A stretch of DNA of 12,031 nt from Alphaproteobacteria bacterium (GTDB taxonomy: Bacteria > Pseudomonadota > Alphaproteobacteria > Rhizobiales > Rhizobiaceae). The position numbers and the translations under genes were made by a program. The notes below the pieces were generated by a model that made no database searches, was not told the origin of the DNA, and saw nothing but the letters and a program-made list of their open reading frames with translations. Location: the NCBI GenBank assembly GCA_017308345.1, contig JAFKFE010000505.1:2052-14082 (forward strand). Reading direction: 5' to 3'. Shown piece after piece: positions 1 through 12,024 of the stretch (positions within the stretch are counted from its first letter, which is position 1; each line of letters starts with the position of its first letter).

Positions 1-36
1 CGAATTCCAAAGCAAAGCCATGGAAGGAGCTTGCAG

Positions 37-489
37 ATGAAACGGTACGTCATATCGGCGCTATGCCTGGGGTTGTTGAGCACAACCGCGGCGAAGGCCG
101 ACACAACGACGGGCAGTCAGTCCTTCGGCATGTCGGCCGTCCAGGCGGCGGTCGGCAAATATGGCCAGGCTATCGGTTCAGACGTCAGGGGCATGAACCC
201 CCTCGGCAGCCTGGGCGGCAATGTCGGCTACAAGAACAGCGGCAGCGGCAATGTCGGCGCCTTCAACAGTGGCAGCGGCAATGTCGGCGCCTTCAACGGC
301 AACAGCAACACCTCGACGACGAGCGGCAACGGCAACATCGGCGCCTTCAACGGCAACGGCAACACCGGCGAATATGACGGCAACGGCAACATCGGCGCCG
401 GCAATGGCAACTTCAACGGCGGGTCGTTCAACGGCAACGGCAATGTCGGCGCCTTCAACGGCAACTTCAACGGACGGGGGAATCGCTGA
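37..489 (+). CDS. Secreted Asn/Gly-rich repeat protein (first of a coupled pair)
   Basis: This 150-residue protein begins with a classical Sec signal peptide: MKR, a hydrophobic core over about residues 4-17, and a likely cleavage after AKA near residue 21. The ATG at 37 is preferred over the in-frame TTG at 31 because GGAAGGAG lies at 22-29, seven bases upstream. After a spacer of about 35 residues, residues 60-150 are almost wholly Gly/Asn repeats of the type GN(V/I)GAFNGN. This period-five pattern resembles the XNXGX repeats of the Pentapeptide_2 family and mycobacterial MPTR proteins, and could form a beta-solenoid. No catalytic residues or cysteines are visible in the repeats. The protein is probably exported to the periplasm or cell surface. 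Its stop overlaps the next start (TGATG), so the two are co-translated. Its function is unknown; a structural, adhesive, matrix or ice-binding-like role is only speculation. Confidence 0.75.
   Translation: MKRYVISALCLGLLSTTAAKADTTTGSQSFGMSAVQAAVGKYGQAIGSDVRGMNPLGSLGGNVGYKNSGSGNVGAFNSGSGNVGAFNGNSNTSTTSGNGNIGAFNGNGNTGEYDGNGNIGAGNGNFNGGSFNGNGNVGAFNGNFNGRGNR
238..480 (+). repeat. In-frame GGCAACGGCAA-type tandem repeat, first block
   Basis: Degenerate tandem DNA repeats built on GGCAA(C/T)GGCAA(C/T) and GTCGGCGCCTTCAACGGC encode the GN(V/I)GAFNGN units of the first repeat protein. Near-identical units, such as GGCAATGTCGGCGCCTTCAA, occur at least three times. The array is therefore prone to slippage and length variation. 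Confidence 0.75.
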
Positions 490-956
490 TGACCGGCCTG
501 AAATCATCCGGGCCCGCCCGGCCCGGCGCGCGCCGGGTGGCGGCGAGGCTGCTTGATGGGAATAGCCTCGCGCTCGGCACCCTGCTTGCCGCGTTCCTGG
601 CCGCCGATGCCTCGACACTGGTCAGGATTGCCGACCTTCCAATCGTGGCCGGTGTCGCCAACGGCCTTGGCAACACCGGCAATTTCAACGGCAACGGCAA
701 TACCGGTAACTTCAACGGCAACGGCAACAGCGGCAATTTCAATGGCAACGGCAATTCAGGCAGCTTCAGCGGCAATTTCAATGGCGGCAGCTTCAACGGC
801 AACGCCAATTGCGGCAACGGCCACGGCAATGGCCAATCGTCCGACGGCAACGGCAACGGCAAGGGAGCCGCGGGCAATCCGGGCTTGTGCCAGTTCCTGA
901 AGGAGCTGAACGGCCGACTGGGACTGCCGCCCGGCACGATTCCGGATTTCGACTAG
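489..956 (+). CDS. Asn/Gly-rich repeat protein with hydrophobic N-terminus (second of a coupled pair)
   Basis: This 155-residue protein starts at the ATG whose A is the last base of the upstream stop (TGATG), which implies translational coupling. The N-terminus has an Arg-rich stretch (ARRVAARLL, about residues 14-22), then a hydrophobic segment (about 27-46). It could be a long signal peptide or a membrane anchor; the prediction is not clean. Residues 57-125 consist of GN(T/S)GNFNGN-type repeats, related to but distinct in wording from the upstream protein. The C-terminal 30 residues are non-repetitive (CQFLKELNGRLGLPPGTIPDFD). There are two cysteines, one in the repeat end (NANCGNG) and one in the tail, which could pair after export. 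No enzyme motif is seen. The pair likely arose by duplication and makes partner exported repeat proteins; this is inference. Confidence 0.7.
   Translation: MTGLKSSGPARPGARRVAARLLDGNSLALGTLLAAFLAADASTLVRIADLPIVAGVANGLGNTGNFNGNGNTGNFNGNGNSGNFNGNGNSGSFSGNFNGGSFNGNANCGNGHGNGQSSDGNGNGKGAAGNPGLCQFLKELNGRLGLPPGTIPDFD
661..855 (+). repeat. In-frame GGCAACGGCAA-type tandem repeat, second block
   Basis: Tandem units of the form GGCAA(T/C)TTCAACGGCAACGG encode GNFNGNGN repeats in the second repeat protein. The unit phrase (GNFNGN) differs from that of the first block (GAFNGN), so the two arrays seem to have homogenised separately after duplication. Confidence 0.7.
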
Positions 957-6116: not shown

Positions 6117-6449
6117 GGATGGCGAGCCGGCCTCGGTCTTGGCGTGCTCGGTCGGATTGGCGCTGTCGACCAGCGTGCCGAGGATGGTCAGGACGAAGGA
6201 GATGGCAAGCAATGCCAGGCCGCGTTGCAGATAGGCCTTCTCTTGGGTCAACTCGCCAAGTGCCTTCCTCAGCAGCGCCCTCTCTTGCGCGGCAAGCGCA
6301 GCCTGGTTCTGCACCGTCAACTTCAGCTCAGCCAGCTTGATGAGCGTTCCCCGCGAATCGATCGACAGGAAAGCCGGGGCGGCCAACAGGATGGCCGCGA
6401 GGAAGCCGCATGCGCCGCCCGCCACCAGCAGCCATGTCGCGGCGCCCAT
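6114..6449 (-). CDS. Small two-helix membrane protein, third gene of the XRE-flap operon
   Basis: This 111-residue protein belongs to no family I recognise. It has a transmembrane helix near residues 5-28, a charged, Gln/Ala/Leu-rich segment of about 45 residues with coiled-coil character (about 34-77), and a second transmembrane helix (about 78-96). A short polar tail ends it. This predicts a helical hairpin in the inner membrane with a central soluble coil. The ATG start overlaps the upstream stop (TGATG); the GTG directly before it is an equally possible start (GTGATG) with AAGGA about seven bases upstream. The overlap shows that it is the last member of the operon with the XRE-flap gene. 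The resemblance to holin-like or effector membrane proteins is only one of shape and is not evidence of function. Confidence 0.75.
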   Translation of the reverse strand: MGAATWLLVAGGACGFLAAILLAAPAFLSIDSRGTLIKLAELKLTVQNQAALAAQERALLRKALGELTQEKAYLQRGLALLAISFVLTILGTLVDSANPTEHAKTEAGSPS

Positions 6450-7387
6450 CACCCGCTTTCCTTCAGCGTTCGCGGCGGCTCCGGTATCGGCTCGGCCGAT
6501 GCGGCCGAGGCCGGTGCCTCCATGGCGGGCCTCCGCGATTCTATCTCCCGCGTCAGAATCTCCAGACTCTCGGGAATAGCCTCAAGCGCGGCATCCCTTG
6601 CGGCGGCGGCACGGGTTGCCGGCGAAACGGCGACATTGGTCTCGATCGCGACGTCGACCCGGACCGACCTTTCGCCCGAACGACTGTCATCATGCACCGC
6701 CACCACGGTGCCGGAGGTTCCGGCCGGCATGCGCAGGGATGTGTCTCGGGCCGATGCCTGCTTGCCGAAGATGGCGCGCAGCAACCTGCTCTCCGAGTCG
6801 TCCTTGTCGGGGGTCGTCTTGCCGACGAGAATGTCCCCTTCCCGCAGGTGGGCGCCAATCCTGGCGATCCCGTTGTCGTCGAGATGCCGTAGTGCCTCGT
6901 CGCCGGCATCGGGGATGTCGCGAGTTATCGTTTCCGGTCCGAACGCGGTGTCGTGAGTGGATATGCGATAGGTCCGCACGCGTACCGGGGAAGCGTCTCC
7001 GGCATCAGCCACTGCCGGCCAACGCTCGGCCGCCGGTTCTTCCGCAAGTCCAGCCGCCATGTCCTGCATCGGCGCCGCGGCAACCGCCGCGTTCTTCTCC
7101 TCCGCATGCAGGCTCAGCCGGGCTCCGCAGGCATCTGTGAAGAGATAGATGAAATCCAGCGGCGGCAGATGATCCAGCACGCCGCTCTCGACTTGCGAGA
7201 TCCGCGCCTGGCTGACGCCGAGCCTTGCGGCGATCGCCTGCTGGGTCAGGCCGGCCTGCTTGCGCAGCCCGCGCAGCAGGGCCGCCGTCTCACGGGCGGC
7301 GCGGACGCGCAACAGAGGGGCGGTGTAGGCGCTGTCCTGCTCGATCTCGCTGAGCAGCCTCGAATCATGATCGTTCACAGGGTCCAT
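6449..7387 (-). CDS. XRE helix-turn-helix protein fused to an RNAP beta-subunit (RpoB) flap-like domain
   Basis: This 312-residue protein starts at the ATG at 7387, which overlaps the upstream gene by 13 bases. A TTG at 7495 would add 36 unlikely residues. Residues 35-69 are an XRE/Cro HTH (LRKQAGLTQQAIAARLGVSQ...ISQVESG). After an Ala-rich linker (about 100-133), residues 136-232 match RpoB. FGPETITRDIPDAGDEAL resembles the RpoB stretch GPEEITRDIPNV, GDILVGKTTP (184-193) resembles GDILVGKVTP, and LLRAIFGKQAS (202-212) and RDTSLRMPAGTSGTVV (214-229) match the flap tip and the strand after it. In E. coli RpoB this is the flap, whose tip helix (around 900-909) binds sigma region 4. L202, L203, I206 and F207 line up with the flap-tip contacts L901, L902, I905 and F906. 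No RNAP active-site region is present. The tail (233-312) is Ala/Glu-rich and unknown. Comparison is from memory of RpoB. It is probably an antitoxin-like autoregulator; the role of the flap domain is open. Confidence 0.88.
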   Translation of the reverse strand: MDPVNDHDSRLLSEIEQDSAYTAPLLRVRAARETAALLRGLRKQAGLTQQAIAARLGVSQARISQVESGVLDHLPPLDFIYLFTDACGARLSLHAEEKNAAVAAAPMQDMAAGLAEEPAAERWPAVADAGDASPVRVRTYRISTHDTAFGPETITRDIPDAGDEALRHLDDNGIARIGAHLREGDILVGKTTPDKDDSESRLLRAIFGKQASARDTSLRMPAGTSGTVVAVHDDSRSGERSVRVDVAIETNVAVSPATRAAAARDAALEAIPESLEILTREIESRRPAMEAPASAASAEPIPEPPRTLKESG

Positions 7388-7773: not shown

Positions 7774-7791
7774 TATAATCCCTGGATTATA
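7774..7791. promoter_or_regulatory. Palindromic operator holding a TATAAT on each strand
   Basis: TATAATCC-CT-GGATTATA is a perfect 8-bp inverted repeat with a 2-bp centre. It lies 13 bases before the first gene of the minus-strand operon. Each arm contains a perfect -10 hexamer, one per strand. This is the classic arrangement for an XRE protein that represses its own promoter; it may act on the divergent radical SAM gene too. Confidence 0.75.
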
Positions 7792-7814
7792 AAATGTCTA
7801 GACTGATCGGTGAA
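7786..7814 (-). promoter_or_regulatory. Promoter of the XRE-flap operon
   Basis: On the minus strand TTCACC (7814-7809), a 17-bp spacer and TATAAT (7791-7786) form a near-consensus sigma70 promoter. The predicted start is near 7779, just before the GGGAG ribosome site of the first gene. The -10 lies inside the palindrome, so a bound HTH dimer would block it. Confidence 0.6.
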
Positions 7815-7958
7815 AGGCCGGATTGGTCGACACATTACGGCGGCCATACACTCCGGATGATTTTTGCGGAGATGCTGCACCAAAATTGCCCACCCCAAGC
7901 CAATTCCCACCCGCATGCAAGGCTAGGACCGGCGGATCGCAACCGCAAGAGGTCCGCC

Positions 7959-9527
7959 TTGAACATCGTGCTCATCAATCCGCCGCACACGGCCATCGGC
8001 AGCCGCGTGCCCGACGATCATCTGCCGCCGCTTGGGCTGCTGGCGATCGGAGGTCCTCTGATCGATTCCGGCCATCAGGTGCGCCTTGTCGACGCCGAAT
8101 TCGGGCCGATGCCGCTCACCACGCTGGTCGACGACGCCCTGAGCGGCGATCCGGATTTCATCCTGATCGGCCATTCCGGCTCGACCTCGGCGCATCCGAC
8201 CGCCTTGAAGATCGCGCAAATGGTCAAGGCGCGCGCGCCAAGCGTCATCCTTATCTATGGCGGCGTCTTCCCGACCTATCATTGGCGCGACATTCTCGCC
8301 GCTACGGATGTCTTCGACTTCATCGTGCGCGGCGAGGGCGAGGCGACCGCGTCGGCGCTGGTCGAGGCGATCGAGATGCGCCAGCCGGTGGCAAGCGTTG
8401 CCGGCATCGCCTATCGCGACGATTTCGGCCATCCCGTCGCCACGCAACCGGCCATGACCATTGCCGATCTCGATGCCTGGCGCGTCGGCTGGGAGCTGAT
8501 CGATCATCGCCGCTACTCCTACTGGGGCGGCAAGCGGGCGGTGGTCATGCAGTTCTCGCGCGGCTGCCCGCATCTGTGCAACTACTGCGGCCAGCGCGGC
8601 TTCTGGACCCGCTGGCGCCATCGCGATCCGGTCAGGTTCGCCAAGGAGATCGCCTGGTTGCATCGCGAGCACGGCGTCGAGCTGATCAACCTGGCGGACG
8701 AGAACCCGACCTCCTCGAAAAAGGCCTGGCGCGCCTTTCTCGATGCCATGATCGCCGAGAACGTGCCGGTGCTGATCGTCGGCTCGACGCGGGCCGACGA
8801 CATCGTGCGCGATGCCGATATCCTGCACCTCTACCGCAAGGCTGGAATCATCCGCTGGCTGCTCGGCATGGAGAACACCGACGAGGAGACGCTGGCGCTG
8901 ATCCGCAAGGGCGGCAGCACCAAGTCCGACCGCTCGGCGATCCGGCTGCTCAGGCGGCACGGCATCCTGTCGATGGCGACCTGGGTGGCCGGCTTCGAGG
9001 ACGAAACGCTCAGCGATCTCTGGCGCGGCTTCCGCCAGCTCATCGCCTACGATCCGGACCAGATCCAGGCGCTCTATGTGACGCCGCACAGATGGACGCC
9101 GTTCTTCCGCATCGCCCGCGACCGCAAGGTGATCCAGAAGGATGTCCGCCTCTGGGACTACAAGCACCAGGTGCTGCACATGACCCGGCTGAAGCCCTGG
9201 ATACTGTTCTTCGCCGTCAAGCTGATCGAGGTGGCCGTGCAGTCGCGGCCGAAGGCGCTGGCGCGCATCCTGTTCCATCCCGACCCGGAGCAGCGTCATT
9301 CGATGCGCTGGTACACCAAGATGGGCCGTCGCGTCTGGTTCCGCGAGGTCTGGGGTTTTCTGGCCCGCGATGGCCGCGTGAGCGATGGCCCGACGCTCGC
9401 CGAATTCTGGGGCGCGCCACAGGACGCCGAGGAGGAATCGATGATCTTTCAACGTCCGGGCAGCAAGCCGGCCACGCCCTTCATCGAATATCTAAGCAAG
9501 ACGAGCGAAAGAAGATTAGCCGGCTGA
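7959..9527 (+). CDS. B12-binding-domain radical SAM protein (BchE-like)
   Basis: This 522-residue class B radical SAM enzyme has an N-terminal cobalamin-binding-type Rossmann domain (about residues 1-145; opens NIVLINPPH, with PPLGLLAIGGPLIDSGHQV and VRGEGEAT). The radical SAM core follows, with the 4Fe-4S motif CPHLCNYC (C203, C207, C210). FSRGCPHLCNYC...FWTRWRHRDP...LADENPT strongly recalls BchE, the anaerobic Mg-protoporphyrin monomethyl ester cyclase. A DxHxxG cobalamin motif is not obvious, as is common in this class. The TTG at 7959 is chosen because AAGAGG lies six bases upstream and homologues start here. The ATG at 7794 would fall almost on the transcription start with no room for a ribosome site. 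No bch genes are nearby, so a chlorophyll role is doubtful; methylation or ring chemistry on a lipid or natural product is possible. Confidence 0.87.
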   Translation: MNIVLINPPHTAIGSRVPDDHLPPLGLLAIGGPLIDSGHQVRLVDAEFGPMPLTTLVDDALSGDPDFILIGHSGSTSAHPTALKIAQMVKARAPSVILIYGGVFPTYHWRDILAATDVFDFIVRGEGEATASALVEAIEMRQPVASVAGIAYRDDFGHPVATQPAMTIADLDAWRVGWELIDHRRYSYWGGKRAVVMQFSRGCPHLCNYCGQRGFWTRWRHRDPVRFAKEIAWLHREHGVELINLADENPTSSKKAWRAFLDAMIAENVPVLIVGSTRADDIVRDADILHLYRKAGIIRWLLGMENTDEETLALIRKGGSTKSDRSAIRLLRRHGILSMATWVAGFEDETLSDLWRGFRQLIAYDPDQIQALYVTPHRWTPFFRIARDRKVIQKDVRLWDYKHQVLHMTRLKPWILFFAVKLIEVAVQSRPKALARILFHPDPEQRHSMRWYTKMGRRVWFREVWGFLARDGRVSDGPTLAEFWGAPQDAEEESMIFQRPGSKPATPFIEYLSKTSERRLAG

Positions 9528-10836: not shown

Positions 10837-12024
10837 ATGACGCAATGGTCCGATAGTGCGCTTGAAGCCGAGATAAGGCGCGTTCAATCGGCTATTCAGG
10901 CATGGGCGGAGCGCCTCGATGTTTGGTTCGATTGCTGCTTCAAATCGTATCAGGAGCATGTGGACGGCGAGCCGCAGGACCCGCCCATCGTGACGTTGCT
11001 AATCTGTGAAGGCGGCCTCTATTCGATCCTCAGTGGCGAAGACGGAGGCGGACACGAGCCCGAGTTCCATGACCTGCTCAAAACTCTCGGCTACTTCTAT
11101 GAGAACAGGGACGGCGTCACGATGGCTATCTGCGCGGAAGATGCCGAGCTCTCATCTGCCTTCGCCGCCTATTTTCATTGGCAATGGGTTTGTAGCCTCA
11201 TCAAAGAGGATACGGGCGATGTCTACCAGGAACTGTTCGATCATTTCTCACATCGTCCTGACGACCTCAACCGGCTCCATTGGCGAGATTTCGAGACGCT
11301 GCTTTTTCGTATCTTCCAGAATCAAGGATTTGAGGCTGAGCTTGGACCGGGACGCGCGGACAACGGCGTTGATCTTCGGCTATGGCAGCGCGATCCGATA
11401 GGAGACGTTCTCACACTCGTTCAGGCCAAACGGTACGCTATCGGGAACAAGATAGACCTGACCCAGGTCGCCGCACTGTATGGGATTGCTACGTCAGAAG
11501 GTGCGGACAAAGCACTGTTTGTCACCACCTCAAGTTATGCGCCCGTCGCGCGCAACTTTGCCGGCCGAACTTCCGATCTCTTGAGGCTTGCCGAACGGGA
11601 GGATGTCGTAGAGTGGTGCGCGCGAGCAAGCGCTGGCATTATTGCCGATAAGTCGTCGCTGGTCTCGCCGGAATCCGTCGGCCGTGTCATTGCTGAGGTG
11701 GCCGCCGCGAGGAAGGACCCGAGGGTCCTAGAGACAAGCTTTGGATACAATATGGTTTTGAATAGCTTTGCCCTAGTCATAAAGGAAACGAAACACGCAG
11801 CGCTCTTGATGTCTCTGCCCCGCCGCACGCTTACCGACGACGGTTATGGACAACGTGGCACTGAGGTGCCGCTTTTCGACGGAACGACAATTTCGCGCCT
11901 CCAGGGCGATATGGTGTGGCGCGCCAAGCGCAAGCTCTATGATGGCCGCGTCGGCTATTGGGACGGGGAGCACCTGTTTCATGCCTGGAACGGTGAGCCG
12001 CAGAATTTCGATTATGTCGACTGA
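10837..12024 (+). CDS. Mrr-type PD-(D/E)xK restriction endonuclease-like protein
   Basis: This 395-residue soluble protein has three parts. Residues 1-140 are an unrecognised N-terminal region (Trp- and acid-rich, with LLICEGGLYSIL). Residues 145-265 are an Mrr-like nuclease domain with all core elements: WRDFETLLFRIFQNQGF (E153), GRADNGVDLRL (D179), VQAKRY (Q196-x-K198) and TQVAALYG...KALFVTTSSYAPVARNFA. The QxK form is typical of Mrr_cat domains that cut modified DNA. Residues 280-395 are a third, unknown region ending in YWDGEHLFHAWNGEPQNFDYVD. No methylase, ATPase or other restriction subunit is in the window, so it may be a solitary type IV-like defence nuclease. Third codon positions are more mixed than in the neighbours, which suggests horizontal gain. 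The start has a hairpin right before it and a poor ribosome site. Confidence 0.82.
   Translation: MTQWSDSALEAEIRRVQSAIQAWAERLDVWFDCCFKSYQEHVDGEPQDPPIVTLLICEGGLYSILSGEDGGGHEPEFHDLLKTLGYFYENRDGVTMAICAEDAELSSAFAAYFHWQWVCSLIKEDTGDVYQELFDHFSHRPDDLNRLHWRDFETLLFRIFQNQGFEAELGPGRADNGVDLRLWQRDPIGDVLTLVQAKRYAIGNKIDLTQVAALYGIATSEGADKALFVTTSSYAPVARNFAGRTSDLLRLAEREDVVEWCARASAGIIADKSSLVSPESVGRVIAEVAAARKDPRVLETSFGYNMVLNSFALVIKETKHAALLMSLPRRTLTDDGYGQRGTEVPLFDGTTISRLQGDMVWRAKRKLYDGRVGYWDGEHLFHAWNGEPQNFDYVD

Follow-up and report, generated by a model that had tools for sequence, protein, structure and literature searches.

A Putative XRE-Type Autorepressor Carrying an RNA Polymerase Beta-Flap Domain in a Three-Gene Operon of Mesorhizobium

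The analyzed stretch of Mesorhizobium DNA (12,031 nucleotides, hereafter the window) carries a compact three-gene operon on the minus strand. The first gene, P2 (7375–7761), encodes a protein of 128 amino acids (aa) that belongs to an unnamed family and overlaps by 13 nt the second gene, P1 (6449–7387), an uninterrupted frame of 312 residues in which an XRE-type helix-turn-helix (HTH) domain is joined to the flap domain of RpoB. The start of the third gene, P3 (6114–6452), overlaps the stop of the XRE gene; its product of about 112 aa has two hydrophobic segments, as read from hydropathy and the family alignment. Upstream of P2, a pattern scan revealed the perfect palindrome TATAATCC-CT-GGATTATA (7774–7791), which is proposed here as the operator of the XRE protein. 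Positions 7794–9527 encode a B12-binding radical-SAM protein that scored above the cut-off of the anaerobic cyclase BchE (TIGR02026; 537 bits, cut-off 481), although the genus is not known for photosynthesis. Farther along, an Mrr-like restriction endonuclease gene (10837–12024; PF04471, E = 2.2e-25) adjoins an argB-like gene; tblastn found no match to it within the compared stretch of Mesorhizobium sp. AR07. At the other end of the window (31–956), two adjacent frames of Gly-Asn-rich repeats (GNGNxGxFN) look secreted by eye.

The HTH domain of P1 (residues 35–98; 7094–7285, minus strand) exceeded the curated Pfam cut-offs of both PF13560 (residues 35–93; 44.9 bits, cut-off 27, E = 1.4e-11) and HTH_3 (PF01381; 37.7 bits, cut-off 23, E = 2.1e-9), and phmmer aligned it with HigA3 (PDB 6lty, E = 7.4e-5). 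The match to the Y4mF/HipB-like XRE antitoxins (TIGR03070) remained below the threshold (33.2 bits, cut-off 71.65), and P1 differs from those antitoxins in its larger size and in its RpoB pieces. The flap occupies residues 133–250 (6638–6991, minus strand) and corresponds approximately to residues 830–950 of Escherichia coli RpoB. RpoB domain 6 (RNA_pol_Rpb2_6, PF00562) matched residues 138–250 with 60.2 bits (cut-off 23.4, E = 2.5e-16), the NCBIfam rpoB profile matched residues 135–251 at its positions 786–905 of 1238 (E = 1.3e-31), and in the PDB sequence set residues 136–243 aligned with E. coli RpoB 832–943. Judged by these scores, the RpoB match is far beyond chance, and the fusion of an XRE domain to an RpoB flap, as described in the original prediction, was borne out by the Pfam, NCBIfam, and PDB alignments, the profile match covering the region where it was expected. 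With the flap domain of RpoB, P1 shares 113 aligned residues, including the tip helix core LLRAIFG (residues 202–208; 6764–6784, minus strand) and the core run GDILVGK; it differs in that its flap stands apart from the catalytic subunit, is joined to an HTH, and has after it no more than a remnant of the RpoB C-terminus. The matches also included the short PDB chains 2ly7, 3woe, and 3tbi. Residues 2–115 of the 3woe chain align with residues 134–244 of P1, and the titles of 3woe and 3wof describe gp39 of phage P23-45 bound to an isolated Thermus beta-flap domain; because of these constructs, the flap of P1 appears to be close to the unit that experimenters excise. A suggested Foldseek comparison did return RNA polymerase (RNAP) beta structures; however, the AlphaFold model behind it was poor (pLDDT 50, from a four-row alignment), so that it merely repeated the sequence match and added little.

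P1 is not a complete RNAP beta subunit. It scored 109 bits with the NCBIfam rpoB profile, for which the cut-off is 801, and only RpoB 835–960 and 1337–1360 (Sinorhizobium meliloti numbering) are represented convincingly. The second of these pieces contradicts the earlier statement that nothing else of RpoB is present, and it is best seen in the copy of strain AR07, where residues 274–297 correspond to S. meliloti RpoB 1337–1360 (of 1380) with 23 of 24 identical residues. At the DNA level, this piece is 82–88% identical to eight rhizobial rpoB copies (E down to 6.9e-23). The AR07 flap (residues 127–248) matches S. meliloti RpoB 835–960 with 63% aa identity, and its DNA is 74–76% identical to the same eight rhizobial rpoB copies and, over a shorter stretch, 70% identical to that of Pseudomonas. 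The flap and the C-terminal piece follow each other in the RpoB order, with about 376 codons absent between them. In the window copy and in that of a third genome, G106, the C-terminal piece is present only in a diverged form (EAIPESLEILTREIES and EAIPESLEILTREMES, respectively); in P1 of the window, this remnant spans residues 268–290 (6518–6586, minus strand), as aligned with the AR07 piece. The AR07 piece (locus L001, 6820–6891) lies next to a flap of much lower identity to RpoB; it is possible that it is less decayed than the flap owing to stronger constraint or to a later gene conversion. Its near-perfect preservation would also agree with a mimic of RNAP assembly, in which the flap, together with the C-terminal segment of beta, would bind beta' and either disturb or monitor core assembly, the C-terminus of beta lying against the N-terminus of beta'. 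However, the piece has decayed in two of the three carriers, and we consider such a role very improbable.

With up to 15 candidates scored per genome, the full fusion was found in at least three of 146 genomes of the genus, namely those of the window, G106 (83% identity), and AR07 (59–63%); AR07 and G134 share the same coordinates and an identical gene and were counted once, and this identity also assigns the genus of the window to Mesorhizobium. Matches to P1 at E ≤ 1e-5 were obtained in 143 of the 146 genomes, mostly to their own RpoB only, at about 50% identity. A species-wide scan with short peptide patterns, covering 84,980 species with one genome each, retrieved AR07 as the single relative. 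The three Mesorhizobium copies are syntenic, with the radical-SAM gene, P2, the XRE-flap gene, P3, a gene for an Lrp-type regulator, and an aromatic amino acid hydroxylase gene in this order. The architecture is thus no accident of one genome, since it recurs in three distinct species at one syntenic locus, and these carriers share LLRAIFG without change, in line with the expectation that homologs would conserve LLRxIF. Among plasmid and phage records, 65 and 14, respectively, matched P1. In no case did the match reach 80% of the query, and all of the matches listed fell within the flap residues (133 onward), i.e., within RpoB. Scanning viral contigs with about two short peptide patterns each revealed no fusion. 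On these comparisons, the XRE gene of one Mesorhizobium lineage has evidently gained two in-frame pieces of a rhizobial-type rpoB, which its relatives lack. In the open-access full-text literature searched, no description of a natural HTH/RpoB-flap protein was found, and an XRE autoregulator with a captured domain of this kind appears to be new with respect to that literature.

The conservation of the fusions was compared between the domains. The pN/pS ratio of residues 1–98 was 0.08–0.19. Between the window and AR07 copies, it was 0.18 for these residues, 0.49 for the linker, 0.62 for the tail, and 0.40 for the flap (95% interval 0.29–0.53); because the flap ratio overlaps those of the linker and the tail, selection on the flap can be called only moderate. 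The dS of the flap between AR07 and the other two carriers is 1.2–1.3, which places the synonymous sites near saturation. Invariant RpoB columns (63) were defined from the RpoB proteins of Mesorhizobium, Pseudomonas, Clostridioides, and Paenibacillus. The window and AR07 copies agree at 48 of these 63 columns versus 14 of 43 variable columns (p = 8.1e-6), and 39 of the 63 are retained in all three fusions. These values indicate that the flap is under moderate purifying selection and has kept RpoB-like constraints since the fusion, as would be expected of a folded flap. The more specific claim that selection holds the binding face found weak support in the invariant tip positions, all six of which are retained (vs. 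39 of 63 overall, P = 0.048). However, GDILVGK in the core is equally retained (7 of 7), and selection on the binding face is therefore inseparable from selection on the fold. In the window copy, the loop ahead of the flap-tip helix is shortened.

The proteins encoded on both sides of P1 belong to families that are unnamed in the four libraries searched and co-occur in scattered Alphaproteobacteria. P2 had no match in Pfam, NCBIfam, PHROG, or PADLOC and nothing significant in the PDB, and P3 gave only weak library matches, all below the cut-offs. Among the three Mesorhizobium carriers, P2 is the best conserved (83.5–93.7% aa identity, compared with 59–83% for P1 and 61–72% for P3). A Foldseek search with the AlphaFold model of P2 gave nothing at E ≤ 0.001, this model (pLDDT 45, three-row alignment) being too poor to inform. 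A plasmid-borne origin of P2 was considered and rejected, as two members of the family had no plasmid match. In HigBA operons, a small gene comes first, the XRE antitoxin gene lies downstream, and a palindrome is located on the promoter. The same layout was observed here, with a small first gene, an overlapping XRE gene, and a palindrome at the promoter. However, P2 showed no RelE/HigB homology: it matched no such family, and hhalign against Gp49-type proteins gave a probability of at most 0.3% with shallow profiles of 2–5 rows. The additional small protein with two hydrophobic segments is a further difference from HigBA. Since P2 failed this toxin homology comparison, shallow as the profiles were, the operon looks HigBA-like in layout only and is not classed there.

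Relatives of the operon were found outside the genus by means of P2. Within the genus, P2 occurs in at least three of 144 genomes, the same three as the fusion, apart from one dismissed match. A P2 profile search of 394 genomes of the family yielded at least five positive genomes (that of the window, G416, and three of another genus). A second draw from the family (337 genomes) recovered four known operons and one dismissed match among the candidates scored; likewise among the candidates scored, the order (347 genomes) and phylum (289 genomes) searches returned only the genome of the window, and the class search (289 genomes) added G863. The draws share genomes, and no more than 11–14 candidates per genome were scored in the large ones. 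P2 was present in one of four genomes in the genus of G416 and in four of ten in the genus of G441. A match in G020 (E = 7e-4) was dismissed because of two internal TGA codons, and one in G403 (locus L050; E = 8.6e-4, 52 residues) was judged to be due to chance, with no P2-XRE-P3 operon around it. Outside the genus, six relatives were examined. Each has an XRE gene after P2, and all but G416, for which no reading of P3 could be confirmed, supplied a P3-like protein for the alignment. Five of the relatives belong to the family of the window, and in these the operon adjoins a gene for an argB-like amino acid kinase; in Mesorhizobium, one radical-SAM gene lies between the two; the window copy of the kinase gene was assigned by PF00696, and the name argB and the copies of the relatives were read by eye. 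G863 belongs to another family, and its operon occupies a different genomic place.

In five of these relatives (G441, G397, G280, G1150, and G863), the XRE protein is short (115–161 aa) and has no flap; where scanned, it gave HTH matches only (Pfam for G441 and G280, NCBIfam for G863). The sixth, G416, encodes in the same operon an XRE protein of 394 aa (locus L037, 317–1501, minus strand) that carries a piece of an ABC ATPase (PF00005, E = 1.7e-24) of the PrtD type, known from type I secretion (TIGR01842, E = 1.5e-77; residues 143–374 of the frame against profile positions 306–537 of 544). Its Walker A (GPNGSGQSP) and Walker B (VVLDSP) motifs are degenerate and, judged by the canonical motifs, presumably without the catalytic lysine and glutamate. 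One small regulator gene has thus captured different housekeeping pieces in two lineages. Because five of the six outside relatives are flap-less and the sixth bears an ABC ATPase piece instead, the flap is unnecessary for the basic work of the operon, and the capture of a degenerate ATPase in G416 makes it less likely that the entire operon has a role specific to RNAP.

The same observations raise the possibility that the flap is a tolerated passenger, brought in by illegitimate recombination with 3'-ward gene pieces and kept lest misfolding spoil the repressor, without any role at RNAP. The captured pieces end near the C-termini of their donors, at RpoB residue 1360 of 1380 and at PrtD profile position 537 of 544; the ATPase piece looks catalytically dead, the RpoB C-terminal piece has decayed in most carriers, and the fusion is rare in the genus. 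A pure passenger would nevertheless be expected to be trimmed, and the RpoB-invariant columns, LLRAIFG included, are still protected despite the high dS of the flap. The explanation is somewhat doubtful but retains a considerable minority of the probability because of the moderate constraint on the flap, the flap-less relatives, and the ABC-bearing relative.

In shuffled sequences, 0.01 matches to the palindrome at 7774–7791 were expected with up to three mismatches, versus one observed. In a scan of the window for promoter-like sites, two on the minus strand had -10-like elements (TATAAT/TATATT) that overlap the palindrome, as did one on the plus strand. A common pattern, TATAAK-N6-MTTATA, was located just upstream of all nine operons, six times without mismatch, twice with one mismatch, and in AR07 with two; since it was derived from the same nine sequences, it is to be read as a footprint and not as an independent prediction. 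In 39 other loci used as a control (137,213 bases), the pattern occurred zero times with up to one mismatch and three times with up to two. Taken singly, three of the nine palindromes surpassed nearly all shuffles, and for the other six, 27–91 of 100 shuffles reached them. A stricter 21-mer was found once per genome in five of the nine genomes, always at the P2-XRE-P3 operon, and was absent from the other four; its reversed version gave no matches. The palindrome is shared by the operon of G863 despite the different family and genomic place. As the footprint is common to the operons, that of G863 included, and the 21-mer occurs only at this operon, the HTH, whether or not a flap is attached, most likely has a single local target. 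It is strongly suggested that P1 acts as a local autorepressor, binding the palindrome over the -10 region of its promoter and thereby repressing its own operon. The label "repressor" given in the original prediction gains support from this candidate operator, and autorepression is better supported than any role of the flap.

For the flap, we tentatively prefer, while granting it less than an even chance, a direct contact with sigma region 4 or NusA that is made while the repressor occupies its operator. P1, presumably as a dimer, would sit on the palindrome at its own promoter and display its flap domains, the tip helix of which would touch sigma region 4 (or NusA). The flap could then tune repression, either with RNAP being held or misplaced at the promoter or in response to free sigma. 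The flap has been described as a sigma- or TFIIB-binding SBHM domain (PMC7824862), and its tip as a hydrophobic hook that engages the final helix of sigma region 4 (PMC2988021), a contact that phages exploit. According to PMC3985653, lambda CI fused to the E. coli flap (831–1057) works as a two-hybrid bait, and binding of the phage factor P7 to it requires tip residues 900–909, L901, and I905; in the PDB alignment, L901 and I905 correspond to residues 202 and 206 of P1. This bait likewise joins an HTH repressor to an isolated flap; however, it is man-made (PMC3985653), whereas P1 is natural and is encoded in an operon with a proposed operator of its own.

The phage factors reported to act on the flap include P7, AsiA, gp39, and lambda N and Q (PMC3985653 and PMC2988021; title of 3woe), which brings a further explanation into consideration. 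The flap, and elsewhere the ABC piece, might bait a foreign factor, for example of a phage, whose binding would derepress P2 and P3 as effectors. The layout of a small gene overlapping an XRE gene resembles that of toxin–antitoxin systems, a small protein with two hydrophobic segments is encoded, and different housekeeping pieces occur in different lineages, all of which would fit such a guard. However, PADLOC assigned neither P2 nor P3 to a defence model and matched P1 in its HTH region only; in three genera the operon stays beside the argB-like kinase gene, not in a mobile island, and the short peptide patterns detected none in viral contigs. To our knowledge, no type I secretion ATPase has been reported as a phage target. 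We therefore regard a decoy function, although attractive, as unlikely. Also unlikely is the broader notion of the XRE autorepressor as a platform whose C-terminal sensors are captured housekeeping pieces (RNAP flap, ABC ATPase); a factor binding the genuine target would then recognize the repressor on its unique operator as well and release P2 and P3, which would amount to a bacterial integrated-decoy switch. The sole hint of defence in the vicinity is the Mrr-like nuclease gene, about 3 kb away.

The meaning of the fusion differs among these explanations. Even if the flap is a passenger, the locus would show that one small regulator gene has taken up, in frame, different pieces of host genes in two lineages. 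Plant immune receptors carry integrated decoys, and if the flap acts as bait, P1 would represent their bacterial counterpart. Contact of the flap with sigma region 4 or NusA, which we tentatively prefer, would make P1 a natural version of the DNA-bound beta flap built in the laboratory and might offer a route to study repression by sigma/flap contact outside RNAP.
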